A DNA stretch of 40,295 nucleotides, from the NCBI GenBank assembly GCA_947587485.1, contig CANPXZ010000005.1, positions 1 through 40,295 of the forward strand, written 5' to 3'. This DNA is from an uncultured Oscillospiraceae bacterium (GTDB lineage Bacteria > Bacillota > Clostridia > Oscillospirales > Oscillospiraceae). Position numbers and translations under genes: made by a program. The notes below the pieces were generated by a model. The model did no database searches, was not told the DNA's origin, and saw only the letters and a list, made by a program, of their open reading frames with translations. How positions within the stretch are numbered: the first letter of the stretch is position 1; each line of letters starts with the position of its first letter. Shown here in pieces: positions 25,558-40,295 of this stretch.

Positions 25558-26523
25558 ATGCGCGACATCTGGAACCCGTGGCACGGGTGTATCAAGTATT
25601 CCGAAGGCTGCCAGAACTGCTACATGTATGCCCTGGACAATCGCCGTGGCGTGGAGCGGCCCTCCAGCGATATTTACAGGACGAACAATTTCAACTACCC
25701 GCTCAAAAAGGACCGGAACGGCAATTACAAGCTCCGTCCAGGCGAGCGGATCCGGGCAAACATGACCTCTGATACATTCCTGGAACAGGCCGACGAATGG
25801 CGGGACGAATTTTGGAACATCATCAAGACCCGTTCAGACCTGGAATTCTGGCTGCTGACCAAGCGCATCCCCAGGATCGAACAGTGCCTGCCGGACGACT
25901 GGGGTAGCGGGTATCCCAACGTGTTCTTAAATATCACCTGCGAAAACCAGCGGGCCTTCGACGAACGCTGGCCGATCTTTGAAAAAATCCCCGCCGCAGC
26001 CAAAGGCATCTGCTGCGCACCGTTGTTATCCATGATCGACCTGACGCCGGCCCTGAAATCCGGGCAGATATGCGAAGTATCCGCCGGCGGCGAAAACTAC
26101 GACAATCCCCGTCCATGTGATTATGACTGGGTCTGGCTCTTGCACGAGCAATGTCGCGTGTACAAAACTACGTTCTACTGGTATGAGACCGGGACCTATC
26201 TCGTCCGGGACGGCAAGACAGCATACATCCCATACAAGCACGACCAGTCAACCATCGCCGGCGCCGCCAGGTTGAACCTGTTCTATCCGGGATCCCATGA
26301 CGGGATTATTCTCAAAGACCCCGTCACGCACGAAATCCTGGATAAAGCCAAGCTGCGCCAGCCCATGTATAATCCGCTGCACTGCCTCAACTGCGGCAAC
26401 CGCGGCATGTGCAACGGCTGCGACCCGGACTGCAAACAGCGGGACAAGTCCTTCAAAATGGCGACATCCGAAGAGATGGACGCCCTGGAGGCTGCCTGGA
26501 AAGAACAGTATAACGCAAAATAA
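25558..26523 (+). CDS. DUF5131 phage Gp37/Gp68-like protein
   Basis: 321 residues, full length for the family. The N-terminus 'I-W-N-P-W-H-G-C-I-K-Y-S-E-G-C-Q-N-C-Y-M-Y' is the hallmark of DUF5131 (phage Gp37/Gp68); the three Cys are arranged C-x6-C-x2-C and are thought to hold an iron-sulfur cluster as in radical SAM-like enzymes. A second cluster near residues 279-299 (C-L-N-C-G, M-C-N-G-C, D-C-K) adds more Cys, which may bind a further cluster or zinc. The biological reaction is not known. GTG/ATG choice is clear: ATG 25558 follows AGAGGGGGTG. It lies 18 bases after the degenerate Nudix gene. Confidence 0.88.
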   Translation: MRDIWNPWHGCIKYSEGCQNCYMYALDNRRGVERPSSDIYRTNNFNYPLKKDRNGNYKLRPGERIRANMTSDTFLEQADEWRDEFWNIIKTRSDLEFWLLTKRIPRIEQCLPDDWGSGYPNVFLNITCENQRAFDERWPIFEKIPAAAKGICCAPLLSMIDLTPALKSGQICEVSAGGENYDNPRPCDYDWVWLLHEQCRVYKTTFYWYETGTYLVRDGKTAYIPYKHDQSTIAGAARLNLFYPGSHDGIILKDPVTHEILDKAKLRQPMYNPLHCLNCGNRGMCNGCDPDCKQRDKSFKMATSEEMDALEAAWKEQYNAK

Positions 26524-26535
26524 CGAGGTGACACC

Positions 26536-26991
26536 ATGCTGTACTATGTGACCGGCGACATGTTCGCCATTGATTACCAGGCCTACGTCAACACGGTCAA
26601 CTGCGTAGGGGTCATGGGAAAGGGCGTCGCCCTCCAGTTCAAGAACCGCTGGCCGGAAAACTACTGGCTCTACAGGGATGCCTGCTTCCGCGACGACGAG
26701 TTCAAGCTGACCCCCGGCGGCATCTTCGTGACCAAGTGTGACAACGCACCTGTCATCGTCAATATGGCGACCAAGAACCACTGGCGCGACCCGTCCCGCC
26801 TGCGCTGGGTGGAAACCGGCATCATGGAGCTCAGCTCCTGGCTGATCCTGAACCCGGATATCAAATCCCTGGCCATGCCCGCTCCTGGGTGCGGAAACGG
26901 AGGCCTCCGCCCCCGTGATGTCAAGCCCATCATCGACAAATACTTATCCGGCCAAAAGGCCAACATCTATGTCTACAACCTCCGGTTGTAA
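26536..26991 (+). CDS. DarG-like macrodomain protein
   Basis: 151 residues, almost only a macrodomain. 'V-N-T-V-N-C-V-G-V-M-G-K-G-V-A-L-Q-F-K' (18-36), 'A-T-K-N-H-W-R-D-P-S' (78-87) and 'P-A-P-G-C-G-N-G-G-L' (115-124) match the DarG/TARG1-type branch of macrodomains. DarG removes ADP-ribose that the toxin DarT2 puts on thymidine in DNA. The C-terminal DarT-binding domain of full DarG is absent and there is no neighbouring toxin, so the gene may be an orphan antidote carried by the element (inference). ATG 26536 has GAGGTG upstream. Confidence 0.92.
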   Translation: MLYYVTGDMFAIDYQAYVNTVNCVGVMGKGVALQFKNRWPENYWLYRDACFRDDEFKLTPGGIFVTKCDNAPVIVNMATKNHWRDPSRLRWVETGIMELSSWLILNPDIKSLAMPAPGCGNGGLRPRDVKPIIDKYLSGQKANIYVYNLRL

Positions 26992-27201: not shown

Positions 27202-27219
27202 AAAAAGGAGGCGTCGCGC

Positions 27220-28299
27220 ATGGCCCAAACACAAGACCACACAGGCAGAGCCTGGCCCAGTGTCAAGGCCATGTGCGATGCCTTCAACATCCCGATGACG
27301 ACGTTCAACAACCGGCTCAAACGCGGCTGGACCCTGGAACAGGCCCTGACAACGCCCCGGGACACGACCCGGCCGAAACACAAATTTGTCAAGCCTGTAA
27401 AAGACTTCAAAGGCGTTGAATACCCGACCGTGGGTGCCATGTGTGCCGTCTACGGGATCTCTGAAAAAGTCTACTGGTCCCGCAAGCGCATCCTGAAATG
27501 GGACCTGGAAAAGATCCTGACCACGCCGCTCCAAACCATCGCAAAAAACGCGAAACAGGTCACAGACCACAACGGCAAGGTCTTTAACTCCATCAGCGAG
27601 CTGTGCCGCTATCACAAGATCGGCCTCTCGACGTTCCGGGAGCGCATCAAGCGCGGCTGGACCATCGAAGAAGCCCTGACGGGCCATGTTGAACGCAAAA
27701 AGATCGAATCGCGCCCAGTCCCTGGCCCAGACGGCAAAAACTACCCGTCCGTAAATGCCATGTGCCGGGCAAACCATATCAGCCGGACCATGTACCTGAG
27801 CCGCATCCGTGCCGGGTGGGACGAGCACGACGCCGCGACGCAGCCATTCGTCATCAACGCGAAGCCGTGTACCGACATGTTCGGAAAGTCCTTCCCGGCC
27901 ACATTTCTGATGGCCGAGTACCACCGGCTGCCAAAATACGCGGTCCAGGGAAAAGACCTGTCCAGATCACACCTCATAAGGCTTATCCGGCAAACCTGGT
28001 CCGGGACATCCTGCGGCAAATACAGAAACCTGCGGCCACTCACATGGCCCTGGTTCCTGGCATCCATCAAAAACAACGATGTCATCGTCCCATACCAAAT
28101 GCTGCTCAAAATCTATCACGATTCCCAGGACTTCATCCCAGTCCGTGAGACCGGTGCGAAAAACCAGAAGGTCAAAATACTCAAAAACTTAGGCTTCCCA
28201 TGGTTTTTGTGCGAGATGGACAGCACGCAATACGTTTTGGACTATGACACCATCATCCGGATCCACGTAGACTCGAACTTCGGGCTTACAAGAAAATAA
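27220..28299 (+). CDS. Tandem helix-turn-helix-like repeat protein 1
   Basis: 359 residues. Four clear and one degenerate copy of a unit of about 42 residues occur at about residues 6-46, 62-103, 115-155, 169-208 and 218-245. Each unit reads D-x-x-G-x-x-F/Y-x-S/T, then a helix 'A-M-C-x-x-Y-x-I', then 'T-x-x-x-R-x-x-x-G-W' and 'A-L'. It looks like a beta hairpin plus helix-turn-helix, related to the DNA-binding repeats seen beside phage HNH and homing endonucleases (NUMOD-like). The last about 90 residues form a unique C-terminal domain with a 'W-F-L-C...Y-V-L-D' strand pair shared with the protein at 29717. ATG 27220 follows AAAGGAGG. A DNA-reading role is likely but not shown. Confidence 0.85.
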   Translation: MAQTQDHTGRAWPSVKAMCDAFNIPMTTFNNRLKRGWTLEQALTTPRDTTRPKHKFVKPVKDFKGVEYPTVGAMCAVYGISEKVYWSRKRILKWDLEKILTTPLQTIAKNAKQVTDHNGKVFNSISELCRYHKIGLSTFRERIKRGWTIEEALTGHVERKKIESRPVPGPDGKNYPSVNAMCRANHISRTMYLSRIRAGWDEHDAATQPFVINAKPCTDMFGKSFPATFLMAEYHRLPKYAVQGKDLSRSHLIRLIRQTWSGTSCGKYRNLRPLTWPWFLASIKNNDVIVPYQMLLKIYHDSQDFIPVRETGAKNQKVKILKNLGFPWFLCEMDSTQYVLDYDTIIRIHVDSNFGLTRK

Positions 28300-28319
28300 T
28301 GAGATAAGGAGGGCCCTGC

Positions 28320-29720
28320 ATGAAAACTCGACAGTTCCCCGCTGATTACAGCACACTCAACGACGACCAGAAATACGCCTTCCAGGCGCTGGCCTACGGT
28401 TATGACTCCGGTAAGAACTTCTTCCTGACCGGTGACGCCGGCACCGGCAAATCCTACCTGATCGACGTCTTCACAAAATATTGCGACATGAACGGTATCA
28501 ACCTGCTCAAATGCGCCCCCACCGGCGTCGCGGCAACAGCCATCGGCGGCGTCACCATGCACCGGCTCTTCAAGCTGCCGCTGACGGTCCTGACGGACCG
28601 CATCGAAGGATCACAATATGCCAACCTGTACAAGACGCTGGTCTACGCCGACATCATCTTCATCGACGAGGTCAGCATGGCCCGTGTAGACATTTTCGGC
28701 AACGCCATGGCCCAGGTCCGCTCGGCCAGCCAGTACCGTGCAAAGAATGGGAAGAACCCGATCCAGGTCATCCTGTGCGGCGATTTCGGCCAGCTCATGC
28801 CTGTCATCACCCAGAAGGACCGCGAGCTGTATTCCGAGGTCACAGGACGCGACATCGGCAACGGATGCTGCTACAACTCCCATTGGTGGACCGAGTTCGA
28901 CTTCCAACCGATCCTGCTGTCCCAGCCCATGCGCCAAACTGACATGGCCTTCTGCAAGGCCCTGGACAACCTCAAGATCGGCGTCAAGGCCGACATGGAC
29001 TACCTGAACCAGAACAGCGCGGACAAGCCCCAAGATGGCGGCATCTGGCTCTGCGGTTACAACAATACGGCCGCTGAAAAGAATGCCCTTGGTATCTGTA
29101 ACCTGCCCGGGGAACTGTACCAAAGCGACGCCGAGGTCACCGGCAAGGCCAATGTGAAGCAGACGAATTTTGCCGAGCGCCTGCCCTACAAGATCGGCGC
29201 CCGCGTCGTCATGTGCATGCAGGAGCCCCGTTCCCAAGGCCATTCCATGTCGTACCACAACGGCAGCCTGGGCACGATCACGGCCCGCGCCCGTTCCGGC
29301 GAGGCAGTCCAGATCAGGCTCGACACCGGCATCTCCGTCTGGGTCAGCAAGATCGACCTTCCGTTTTATGACTACACGGTCCACGACGGGCACATCCAGC
29401 CCGTGGAGATCGGCCACGTCCGCCAGTTCCCGTTCAAGATCGGCTACGCCGTGACCATCCATAAGGCCCAGGGCCAGACCTATGACAAGATGAACCTGGT
29501 CCCGGAGATCTTCATGGCCGGCCAGCTCTATGTAGCCATGTCCCGCTGCAAGACCCTGAGCAAGATCTATATCCAGCCTGACGCCTACGGCCTCAAGATC
29601 ACGCCTGACAAGATCCGTGCCAACATGGAGACCGTCAAGTTCCTGATCGACACGGACGCCAAATCGGCCAGCTTCAAAAACTGGTTCATGGGCGCCCTGT
29701 ACGACAGGAACGCGGGTTGA
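28320..29720 (+). CDS. Pif1/RecD-like SF1 helicase
   Basis: 466 residues. Walker A G-D-A-G-T-G-K-S (38-45), an 'A-P-T-G-V-A-A' motif Ia (66-72), D-E-V-S (116-119), C-G-D-F-G-Q-L-M-P motif III (153-161), Q-P-M-R-Q-T motif IV, 'I-H-K-A-Q-G-Q-T' motif V region and 'Y-V-A-M-S-R' motif VI are all in place. It should unwind DNA 5'-3' using ATP. Phage and plasmid Pif1 relatives (Dda-type) help replication restart or recombination. It has no extra nuclease domain. It lies between two modular repeat proteins; ATG 28320 follows AAGGAGGG and its end overlaps the next gene by 4 bases. Confidence 0.92.
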   Translation: MKTRQFPADYSTLNDDQKYAFQALAYGYDSGKNFFLTGDAGTGKSYLIDVFTKYCDMNGINLLKCAPTGVAATAIGGVTMHRLFKLPLTVLTDRIEGSQYANLYKTLVYADIIFIDEVSMARVDIFGNAMAQVRSASQYRAKNGKNPIQVILCGDFGQLMPVITQKDRELYSEVTGRDIGNGCCYNSHWWTEFDFQPILLSQPMRQTDMAFCKALDNLKIGVKADMDYLNQNSADKPQDGGIWLCGYNNTAAEKNALGICNLPGELYQSDAEVTGKANVKQTNFAERLPYKIGARVVMCMQEPRSQGHSMSYHNGSLGTITARARSGEAVQIRLDTGISVWVSKIDLPFYDYTVHDGHIQPVEIGHVRQFPFKIGYAVTIHKAQGQTYDKMNLVPEIFMAGQLYVAMSRCKTLSKIYIQPDAYGLKITPDKIRANMETVKFLIDTDAKSASFKNWFMGALYDRNAG

Positions 29721-30928
29721 CGGCCGTGGGCATCAAAAAGCCGGTGACGGACCATCTCGGCAACCAGTTCGAGTCATATGCTGAAATGTACCGCCACTGG
29801 GGGACGAACCAGACGATATATCATTATCGCACAGCTGTAAAAGGCTGGAGTATGAAAGACGCGCTGGAAACGCCCCCGATGGACACTGATATGGCCGGCG
29901 CGCACGAATGCGAGGACCATCTCGGAAACAAGTTCGAATCCATCCGGGCCATGTGCGACTACTGGCGCATCCCGCGGACCACGTTCTTCCAGCGCCGCTC
30001 CAAAGGCTGGAGCCTGGAAAAATGCCTCTCGCCGATCGAAAAGCGCCGCCGGACCACAGCCCGCCACGTAAGCGACGGACTCGGAAACGACTATGAATCG
30101 CTGGACGCCATGTGCGCCGCCTATGATATCACGAAACAGCAGTATATCACCAACATCCGGAACAACCTGTCCGTCCAAGACGCCCTCACATCAAAGACCG
30201 AAAAGCCGGAACGGCCAAAAGACCACAAAGGCGTGGAATACGACTCCATCAATGCCCTCTGCCGAGCCTACGGGATCACCAAGACGACATTGAGATCCCG
30301 CCTGGAACTCGGATGGACACTGGCCGAGATCCTGGAAAATCCGGAAAACCACAACCACTATATCAAGTCCAAGGACCATGAGAACAAAAAATTCAATTCC
30401 CAAAAGGCCATGCTGGAAGCCCACGGCGTCTCATACGCAACCTACACTCACCGCATCAAGAGCGGCTGCGACATTGAAACGGCGCTCACGGCGGACAGCC
30501 TGCACAAGATCCCGTCCAAGGACTTCGAAGGCAATGAATTCCCATGCCAGGCAGCCATGCTCGAATACTGGCTGATCAACAACGGGACCTACGCAAACCG
30601 GAAAGAGCGCAGCCTGTATTCTGAAACGGACACCCTGGCACGCCCGACCATCGGACGGACTTACCCGGGCGGCGTCAAACCGGTCAAAAGATTCGGCCTC
30701 TTCTGGCTCGTAGAATTCAAAGGTCAGCGTTACGTCGTCACAAAAAAGGGCTTCTGGCGGTTTGCCCGCCAAAAAGCCCTGCTGTCCATGATCCAGGACC
30801 AAACACTGCCGGACGGCGTGAACATCCGGCACATCTCGGAAAACTGGTTTTTGTACGACGGCCGATACGTACTGGACGGGGAGGCTGCATTTAAGAAGAT
30901 GCTGACCGAGCGGAAGTGGGCAAACTAA
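29717..30928 (+). CDS. Tandem helix-turn-helix-like repeat protein 2
   Basis: 403 residues. Six copies of the same unit as in the protein at 27220 lie at about residues 11-53, 66-106, 119-159, 168-209, 219-259 and 268-309. Key positions repeat: D-x-L/x-G-N-x-F/Y-E/x-S, A-M-C, Y-x-I, R and G-W, A-L. The C-terminal 90 residues match the other repeat protein in the 'W-F-L-Y-D-G-R-Y-V-L-D' strands. Start is TTG 29717 overlapping the helicase stop (TTGA), or GTG 29726; neither has a strong ribosome site, which fits coupling to the helicase. Modular DNA recognition in complex with the helicase is a reasonable inference. Confidence 0.82.
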   Translation: MTAVGIKKPVTDHLGNQFESYAEMYRHWGTNQTIYHYRTAVKGWSMKDALETPPMDTDMAGAHECEDHLGNKFESIRAMCDYWRIPRTTFFQRRSKGWSLEKCLSPIEKRRRTTARHVSDGLGNDYESLDAMCAAYDITKQQYITNIRNNLSVQDALTSKTEKPERPKDHKGVEYDSINALCRAYGITKTTLRSRLELGWTLAEILENPENHNHYIKSKDHENKKFNSQKAMLEAHGVSYATYTHRIKSGCDIETALTADSLHKIPSKDFEGNEFPCQAAMLEYWLINNGTYANRKERSLYSETDTLARPTIGRTYPGGVKPVKRFGLFWLVEFKGQRYVVTKKGFWRFARQKALLSMIQDQTLPDGVNIRHISENWFLYDGRYVLDGEAAFKKMLTERKWAN

Positions 30929-39176: not shown

Positions 39177-39227
39177 ATCCCCGCCCTGAAGTTGATTTTT
39201 ATCAACCTCGGGACGGGGATTTTTTTA
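39177..39227 (+). terminator. Rho-independent terminator
   Basis: A long stem of about 20 bp with a few mismatches (39177-39196 with 39201-39220) around TTTT, followed by T(7). It closes the plus-strand unit and marks the change to AT-rich DNA. Confidence 0.85.
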
Positions 39228-39251
39228 TTTTTATCCAGATTCTTTATTCCG

Positions 39252-39390
39252 TCAAATTTTTGCCACCCGCATATCATATTCAGGGACAAGTTCATCCGGC
39301 AAAAAATCACGAGTGTGGTTCTTAATAGCATCATTGATCAAAACATCACGATCTGTTCTTTAGTGAAATGATCATACAGATGCTCACCTG
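39252..39390 (-). pseudogene. Broken C-terminal gene remnant
   Basis: On the minus strand, 'L-Y-D-H-F-T-K-E-Q-I-V' runs into a stop, while a shifted frame continues 'L-I-N-D-A-I-K-N-H-T-R-D-F' and ends in 'P-E-Y-D-M-R-V-A-K-I' at TGA 39254-39252. The two pieces read together like the end of one real protein broken by a frameshift. No start or ribosome site is left. I do not recognise the family. Confidence 0.4.
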
Positions 39391-39396
39391 AAAAAT

Positions 39397-39972
39397 TCAG
39401 TAGTTTATCAATCTTCCGTTATCATTCCATTCGCCATACATCACACCGATTTTTGTATTGTCAATCAACTTTTGCAATCGGCTTTGGAATAGCTCTGTCT
39501 GCTTCTTTTTGATTTGAATTGTATCTATACGAACGCGCTGATATAGCAGGGGGAAACTTTGAAAATTGTGCCAAACCTCTGCATCATCTTGCAATGCCTT
39601 CAAAATATCACTGTCAATCACAAACCCCTTCTCCGTCATATCCGGCAGCACAGCGCGTCCTGCATCTGTCATTCGCCCCAACCGCTCCATTCTGCGACAG
39701 CGTTCTTTGTTCAGCTCTGACCATAAACTTCCTTTCCTTCGAGGAGCTAATCTTTGTGCTGTAACACCATTATCCATTTTCTTTGTGGTACTGTCAATCC
39801 AGCCAAAGCACATGGCTTCTTCCACCGCATCAATGTACCAAAATGTTTTATTATCAACAGGGCAACCACGCTTGACGACAACCCAGCATTCAGTTTCTTT
39901 ATCGTGATTTATTAGAAGCCATTCTCGCAACTCATCTCGGTTTTGAACTTTCAATAAATTTCTAAATTCCAT
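39397..39972 (-). CDS. YdeI/OmdA-like protein
   Basis: 191 residues. 'W-Y-I-D-A-V-E-E-A-M-C-F-G-W-I-D-S', 'R-K-G-S-L-W-S-E-L-N' and 'R-M-T-D-A-G-R' are typical of the YdeI/OmdA family (bacteriocin or antimicrobial peptide resistance-associated), full length. Start ATG 39972 has TTGGAG at 9 bases; the open frame before it lacks a ribosome site. The gene and its surroundings are visibly more AT-rich than the rest of the window and use A/T-ending codons, a sign of recent transfer. Mechanism of the family is not established. Confidence 0.85.
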   Translation of the reverse strand: MEFRNLLKVQNRDELREWLLINHDKETECWVVVKRGCPVDNKTFWYIDAVEEAMCFGWIDSTTKKMDNGVTAQRLAPRRKGSLWSELNKERCRRMERLGRMTDAGRAVLPDMTEKGFVIDSDILKALQDDAEVWHNFQSFPLLYQRVRIDTIQIKKKQTELFQSRLQKLIDNTKIGVMYGEWNDNGRLINY

Positions 39973-40018
39973 TCGTTTAATCTCCAAAAACACTTTATTT
40001 TGCCATATTAAACCCTTA

Positions 40019-40295
40019 TCAAGGTCCATCCAGGCACGGCCCGACATCATTATGATCATCGTCCATCAGCTCAACCAAATGCGACAGTTTCAGGATGGAA
40101 TCCGGCGGCACCGGCTTCATGGGGTCCGAAAAATATCCGAAAGTCTTATCCGGCCTCAAGTCAACATTCGACAAAGCCGGAAACCTGTTCTGCGGGTACC
40201 TGTTAACGAAAACCGAAGCGGCCATCTGGTCCTGCTTCATACCGTCACGGCAATTTGACAGACGTTTCGCACGCCGATCCGAACCATCTTTACAA
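40019..40295 (-). CDS. Partial hypothetical protein, 3' part only
   Basis: A minus-strand frame ends at 40019 and is open to the window edge, so only the C-terminal about 91 residues are seen. It has two Cys near the visible start and a basic stretch, then a mixed region ending L-D-G-P. GC content returns to the level of the main window here. The plus-strand frame over the same bases lacks a ribosome site. Could be part of the AT-rich gene's unit, since the spacing to YdeI is 46 bases. Not recognised. Confidence 0.45.
   Translation of the reverse strand, partial: CKDGSDRRAKRLSNCRDGMKQDQMAASVFVNRYPQNRFPALSNVDLRPDKTFGYFSDPMKPVPPDSILKLSHLVELMDDDHNDVGPCLDGP

Follow-up and report, generated by a model that had tools for sequence, protein, structure and literature searches.

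Introduction

Homing-type endonucleases carry strings of small DNA-binding modules (PMC1564403, PMC2988022), and free-standing homing endonucleases with DNA-binding domains arranged as beads on a string have been described (PMC2988022). One member, I-TevI, is an autorepressor by way of its DNA-binding domain (PMC2988022). Here we analyse two proteins, A and B, which appear to be built from modules of this kind and flank a Pif1-type helicase gene in contig CANPXZ010000005.1 of an uncultured Oscillospiraceae bacterium of the gut. The window under study is this whole contig (C5), 40,295 bases of a 2.54-Mb metagenome-assembled genome (MAG). In the literature searched, a body that leaves out most subscription papers, arrays of this kind are nowhere described together with a helicase, Pif1 included.

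Results

Two arrays of one unit flank a Pif1-type helicase

Three genes follow one another on the forward strand: array protein A (359 amino acids [aa]; 27220–28299), a Pif1/Dda-type superfamily 1 (SF1) helicase (466 aa; 28320–29720), and array protein B (403 aa, TTG start; 29717–30928). A stops 20 bases upstream of the helicase, and the start of B overlaps the helicase stop by 4 bases; the open reading frame (ORF) coordinates thus bear out the direct flanking and the 4-base overlap given in the initial annotation. Only an 18-base spacer (27202–27219) separates A from the preceding ORF. The three genes form a tightly packed unit and probably one operon.

The repeats were delimited with a hidden Markov model (HMM) trained on nine hand-aligned window units. 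Orthologues from the sole close relative found (L025, a rabbit-gut Oscillospiraceae MAG contig) and shuffled sequences were kept outside the training set. Across A, B, and the orthologue of each, the model matched 22 units (E ≤ 0.01); in 500 shuffles of A and B it matched none. The units of A lie at about residues 2–46, 58–103, 112–156, and 165–209, followed by a weak partial fifth (215–241) and a C-terminal region; those of B lie at about residues 8–53, 63–107, 116–160, 165–209, and 216–260, followed by a degenerate sixth (265–310) and a C-terminal region. The initial annotation had read A and B as five and six copies of one unit; the repeats stand, with four full units plus the partial one in A and five full units plus the degenerate one in B. 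The conserved part of the unit measures about 38–45 residues, the start-to-start pitch is 49–55 residues, and the consensus across elements reads DHLGNxFxSxxxMCxxYGIxxxTxxxRxxxGWSLExAL. Both proteins are basic (isoelectric points [pI] 9.8 for A and 9.1 for B).

The C-terminal domain that the two proteins had been said to share was not recovered: profile comparison of the two regions scored 13.5, below column-shuffled controls (up to 18.8). WFL...YV motifs occur in both regions, and their copies, once trimmed by hand, match one another only weakly (E = 3e-4). For A and B, Pfam, PHROGs, and NCBIfam revealed no nuclease domain, Pfam no Rep domain, and PADLOC no match at E ≤ 0.01.

The middle gene is Pif1-like by domain (PF05970, E = 5.7e-27; 95.2 bits against a cut-off of 25.9) and by motifs (I, GDAGTGKS; II, IDEVS; III, GDFGQ; V, HKAQGQT; VI, VAMSR), and it has relatives of solved structure (e.g., 5ftb_A, 1e-45). 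Its matches among host relatives are mostly partial and lie in frames of 700–900 aa, which we read as RecD2-type; no second copy of the Pif1-type gene occurred among the host relatives searched. A peptide-pattern search of IMG/VR returned no close relatives of the helicase or of B.

The order array, helicase, array is kept in L025, with a gap of 28 bases between A and the helicase and an overlap of 4 bases between the helicase and B. The orthologues are 79% (A), 91% (helicase), and 83% (B) identical, with ratios of nonsynonymous to synonymous substitution (dN/dS) of 0.148, 0.092, and 0.145, respectively; within B, the units are 92% and the C-terminal region 67% identical. All three genes are under purifying selection between the window and L025.

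Predicted fold and signs of DNA reading

Unit 2 of B (29903–30046, forward strand), modelled singly by AlphaFold2 with 77 aligned units, reached a predicted local distance difference test score (pLDDT) of 89.0. The model has a beta-hairpin, a helix at 14–20, a tight turn, a helix at 25–33, and a short third helix at 38–41; each unit is accordingly modelled as a helix-turn-helix (HTH) fold with a beta-hairpin. A model of whole B repeats this fold six times with flexible linkers (pLDDT 64; predicted template modelling score [pTM] 0.23), and does not fix the placement of one unit relative to the next. The unit gave weak HTH-type matches in a PDB look-up (CueR, Z 2.3; Rap1, Z 2.9); a fold search with the single unit returned nothing significant, and one with whole B no match at E ≤ 0.001. 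In the structure comparison of whole B, the VIA rows cover the C-terminal region alone, which weakly resembles small Tudor/SH3-like barrels (Z up to 4.3). A relative array from Streptococcus equinus exceeds the Pfam cut-offs of several HTH families.

Seven candidate contact positions (20, 21, 22, 25, 26, 29, and 30, counted from the conserved Asp) lie on or just before the second helix. Among the nine full window units, diversity at these positions is 0.889, against 0.615 elsewhere (permutation p = 0.00075); this p is somewhat optimistic, because the positions were picked from the variable columns of L062 and of a wider alignment that included the window units. Between the window and L025, 59 of 63 residues at these positions are identical (94%), as are 249 of 279 at the others, so the contact positions are no less conserved. 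The units thus differ from one another while each keeps its own residues, which fits each unit reading a conserved base pattern. In the rumen contigs L062 and L064, with 17 near-identical units, dN/dS is about 0.99 at contact positions and 0.46 outside the recognition helix; change at the contact positions there is relaxed or diversifying, which is no proof of positive selection.

Relationship to homing-type endonucleases

The best library matches of the units are PHROG 1065 (unknown function; best, E = 1.4e-30), 3377 (HNH endonuclease), and 201 (PVL ORF-50-like), the match to 3377 being restricted to the unit part (profile positions 94–191 of 196). A and B reach 21.3 and 18.4 bits with PF07768 (PVL_ORF50), under the gathering score of 27, which the relative arrays of S. 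equinus and pCY360 pass with 42.6. In a pattern scan of IMG/VR, one to four copies of the unit form the tail of GIY-YIG proteins (L078, L098, L137, L140, and others; TIGR01453 confirms the GIY-YIG identity of L078), and likewise of HNH-type proteins (L143, L146, and others), which accounts for the PHROG links to endonuclease families. Judged by these matches, the unit is the module with which homing-type endonucleases, both GIY-YIG and HNH, bind DNA. The modular DNA-reading arrays proposed in the initial annotation gain support from this tail, from the hairpin and HTH unit, and from the variation at the recognition helix, and we consider A and B very probably to be nuclease-free DNA-reading arrays.

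Place ties the two kinds of protein together as well as sequence does, because the slot before YqaJ is occupied in some phages (L140) by GIY-YIG proteins with units and in other phages (L065, L172) by arrays free of a nuclease. In L140 (3724–5630), and similarly in L098, L134, and L136, a GIY-YIG protein bearing three or four units is encoded directly before a YqaJ-type recombinase gene; many IMG/VR contigs have this arrangement. Array genes of L065 (4798–5124, 9464–9859) and L172 (434–907) overlap their neighbours as well, YqaJ genes by 11 and 16 bases and RusA by 4; array coupling is therefore not limited to helicases.

Distribution of the arrays

Array carriers are large plasmids and phage contigs. 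The plasmids are pCY360, where array genes are clustered, and pCY186, both of Butyrivibrio; one of 236 kb from S. equinus; and others from Lactobacillus, Alteromonas, Shewanella, and Sporosarcina. On the phage side are rumen contigs and the filamentous Vibrio phage VfO3K6. Array A had no match in phage records. Among sampled chromosomes, 394 genomes of the order yielded arrays in one other genome, and 397 further genomes of the phylum in none, so a host (chromosomal) system is ruled out. In the stretches compared, nothing but arrays, HU, and the Pif1 helicase is common to the window and pCY360.

On pCY360 (325–336 kb; L033 10257–20631), seven consecutive array genes are interrupted by an IS605-type element, with cas12a adjoining and a ResIII-type helicase at the end; several of the proteins end in a CxxC...H...H motif resembling a zinc finger. 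The VfO3K6 protein Vpf497 (L075 3422–4915; 5528–7021 of the phage record) matches the DNA-binding domain of I-TevI below threshold. We take Vpf497 to be f237 ORF8, the polymerase chain reaction (PCR) marker of pandemic Vibrio parahaemolyticus O3:K6.

Arrays beside other helicases

Outside the window and L025, relatives of A and B adjoin helicases of several unrelated kinds. An array gene directly adjoins a ResIII-type superfamily 2 (SF2) helicase on pCY360 (overlap 11 bases); the rumen contigs L062 and L064 encode a 40%-identical helicase of this type, with one array before it and two after. An SNF2-type helicase has an array gene directly beside it in phage L045 (overlap 4) and in the phage group L167/L169/L170/L171 (gaps 21–38). 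In pCY360, L045, and L167/L169/L170, the array gene stands before the helicase. In L063, an array lies 335 bases from an SNF2-type helicase with DNA polymerase A on the opposite side; on Lactobacillus crispatus p1, an array and a DnaB-like helicase adjoin and face each other; on pCY186, an array is one gene apart from a Suv3-type helicase. The SNF2-type pairing occurs in two or three phage groups. The three-gene layout, which the initial annotation proposed to look for in other elements, was found in L025 in the same order and, in two-sided form with a ResIII-type helicase, in L062 and L064. That annotation would have been refuted by relatives of the repeat proteins that never neighbour a helicase; relatives do adjoin helicases, of several unrelated kinds.

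Helicases make up 5 of 35 immediate array neighbours against 1 of 133 other genes of these loci (Fisher p = 0.0016), or 4 of 35 without DnaB (p = 0.007), in a small sample with genes from a simple ORF picker and a background counted from the 25 best-matched families. The sample was fixed before the last scan, and the pCY186 helicase, which is in the scanned set, was not counted as a neighbour. The excess may stem in part from arrays living in replication modules, because the background covers whole modules and other replication and recombination genes adjoin arrays.

Other features of the contig

The window has no matching ends, and neither tRNA nor other Rfam RNA genes were found in it. Its annotations (HNH, NADAR, macro, dCMP deaminase, HU, Pif1, sortase) are typical of a plasmid or a large phage-like element; no structural phage genes were recognised among the annotated genes. 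Upstream of A, on the same strand, lie a DUF5131 protein (25558–26523) and a stand-alone, DarG-like macro-domain protein (26536–26991), both found by domain search and conserved as neighbours in L025, where their order is identical and the macro gene likewise precedes array A. The macro gene has a PADLOC match close to DarG (E = 2e-51), and no DarT was noted beside it; the adjacent DUF5131 protein matches the PADLOC candidates PDC-M30B/M41B. The same element encodes a NADAR-domain protein (PF08719; 20243–20722). Macro and NADAR proteins are both of kinds associated with ADP-ribose removal, perhaps in counter-defence. The stretch at 39200–40060 is AT-rich (GC 0.43 against about 0.58), unlike the remaining contig, and contains an OmdA/YdeI-type gene on the minus strand (39397–40059); it is a recent insert or a chromosomal piece.

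Discussion

We propose that A and B are nuclease-free arrays of the beta-hairpin and HTH module with which homing-type GIY-YIG and HNH endonucleases read DNA. Most likely, each array would follow double-stranded DNA, every unit contributing one recognition helix, and each protein would in this way read a single long, specific site. From that position, A and B would load or place the adjacent Pif1-type helicase, and this enzyme would unwind DNA at the site or starting from it, serving replication or recombination of the element. Action through the helicase is favoured because the layout is kept in two diverged elements under purifying selection and because arrays recur independently with unrelated helicases, including the two-sided arrangement of L062. 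That the arrays place a coupled helicase on specific DNA, which according to the initial annotation could be an origin or target DNA, is nevertheless a tentative reading, to which we give somewhat less than an even chance, because the pairing is optional and a common contact domain is absent.

Several observations weigh against placement of the helicase by the arrays. Many arrays have no adjacent helicase, and other array neighbours are RusA, YqaJ, RdgC, DnaN, DNA polymerase A, and a methylase; the pairing noted in the initial annotation therefore holds for relatives beside several unrelated helicases and is not obligatory. L149, closely related to L062, has an orthologous ResIII helicase (54% identical to that of L062) and no arrays. 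Relatives of the SNF2-type helicase occur in 608 phage records, a collection in which the phage array itself is unmatched, and in the two phage relatives inspected no array gene is annotated ahead of the helicase. The C-terminal regions, the obvious contact surface, have no detectable kinship between A and B or between element types. Outside the coding units, the window contains no short tandem direct repeats (iterons). An iteron-type replication initiator system was considered and rejected, there being no iteron-like repeats in the window and no Rep domain in A or B.

The arrays might instead be selfish genes or remnants: relatives of free-standing homing endonucleases that lack the nuclease, or the split partners of such enzymes, lodged next to conserved genes for replication and recombination because their target sites lie in those genes; the helicase would then be a neighbour and not a partner. 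The shared endonuclease tail, the interchange in the YqaJ slot, and the described free-standing enzymes with beads-on-a-string domains (PMC2988022) all point this way, as do arrays that come and go at one helicase locus. At that locus (L062 7091–13089; L149 4450–7776), the helicase region is a variable island with different flanking ORFs between flanks that are 85–90% identical; arrays are present in one and absent from the other, but further genes near the helicase differ too, and the sole relative of the window keeps both arrays. With no nuclease domain found, A and B would be unable to home alone, and a dN/dS of about 0.15 for both arrays, their retention around the helicase in two diverged elements, and the independent two-sided flanking in L062 make this explanation, in our judgement, somewhat unlikely.

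That the arrays regulate transcription, either element-wide or within their own operon, as the DNA-binding part of I-TevI does in autorepression (PMC2988022), would suit basic proteins made of HTH modules. Such a role by itself leaves the tight coupling to unrelated helicase families unexplained, and the spacer before A measures only 18 bases; we think this role distinctly improbable. A defence or exclusion module, in which arrays recognise competitor DNA, the helicase disrupts it, and varied units reflect an arms race, would agree with the variable contact sites (dN/dS about 1) of L062, with the L062/L149 island, and with the cas12a gene adjoining the pCY360 arrays. A and B have no PADLOC match, however, and where the helicases match defence proteins, they do so only in generic helicase parts; from the window to L025 the contact residues stay conserved, and this explanation seems very improbable.

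If helicase placement is nonetheless the right reading, with arrays that read DNA unit by unit, these loci would offer a natural, modular route by which an unwinding enzyme reaches a chosen sequence. The natural arrays of L062 and S. equinus, nearly identical in scaffold and varied in contact residues, would then be well suited to working out the recognition rules. Recurrence with unrelated helicases in rumen plasmids and phages suggests that arrays steer helicases or travel with them. The broader idea of a general class of modular mobile-element DNA-reading arrays, in which about seven positions of each unit would hold a recognition code and which would have been joined repeatedly to unrelated helicases (SF1 Pif1, SF2 ResIII, SNF2, perhaps Suv3) to steer them, is one that we regard as unlikely. 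Were the arrays of homing origin and no partners of the helicase, they would show DNA-reading parts of selfish endonucleases persisting, nuclease-free, beside replication genes. Either reading offers a clue to unnamed proteins, among them f237 ORF8, the pandemic marker, and those of the pCY360 array cluster.

Comparison with known systems

The middle gene is a member of the Pif1/Dda helicases by domain and motifs and differs from them in its coupling to such arrays, of which the literature searched gave no report. The PVL_ORF50 family (PF07768) and PHROGs 1065, 3377, and 201, although the nearest library families, have no assigned function beyond the HNH endonuclease label of some members, and the Pfam match of A and B stays below the gathering score. 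The tails of GIY-YIG and HNH homing-type endonucleases are alike in the unit itself (by HMM), in the succession of several small modules, and in their occurrence in phage genomes, whereas A and B have no detected nuclease domain, form longer arrays, and flank a helicase. Vpf497 of the Vibrio filamentous phage f237/VfO3K6 has five units of this kind, but is a single gene with no adjoining helicase. Transcription activator-like effectors (TALEs) have two-helix repeats of 33–35 aa. TALE and TALE-like proteins resemble A and B in the way they work only, as tandem units with a few variable residues where DNA would be read; the window units are hairpin-HTH modules of about 45 aa plus linkers, at a pitch of 49–55 residues, and not two-helix repeats with a variable di-residue.

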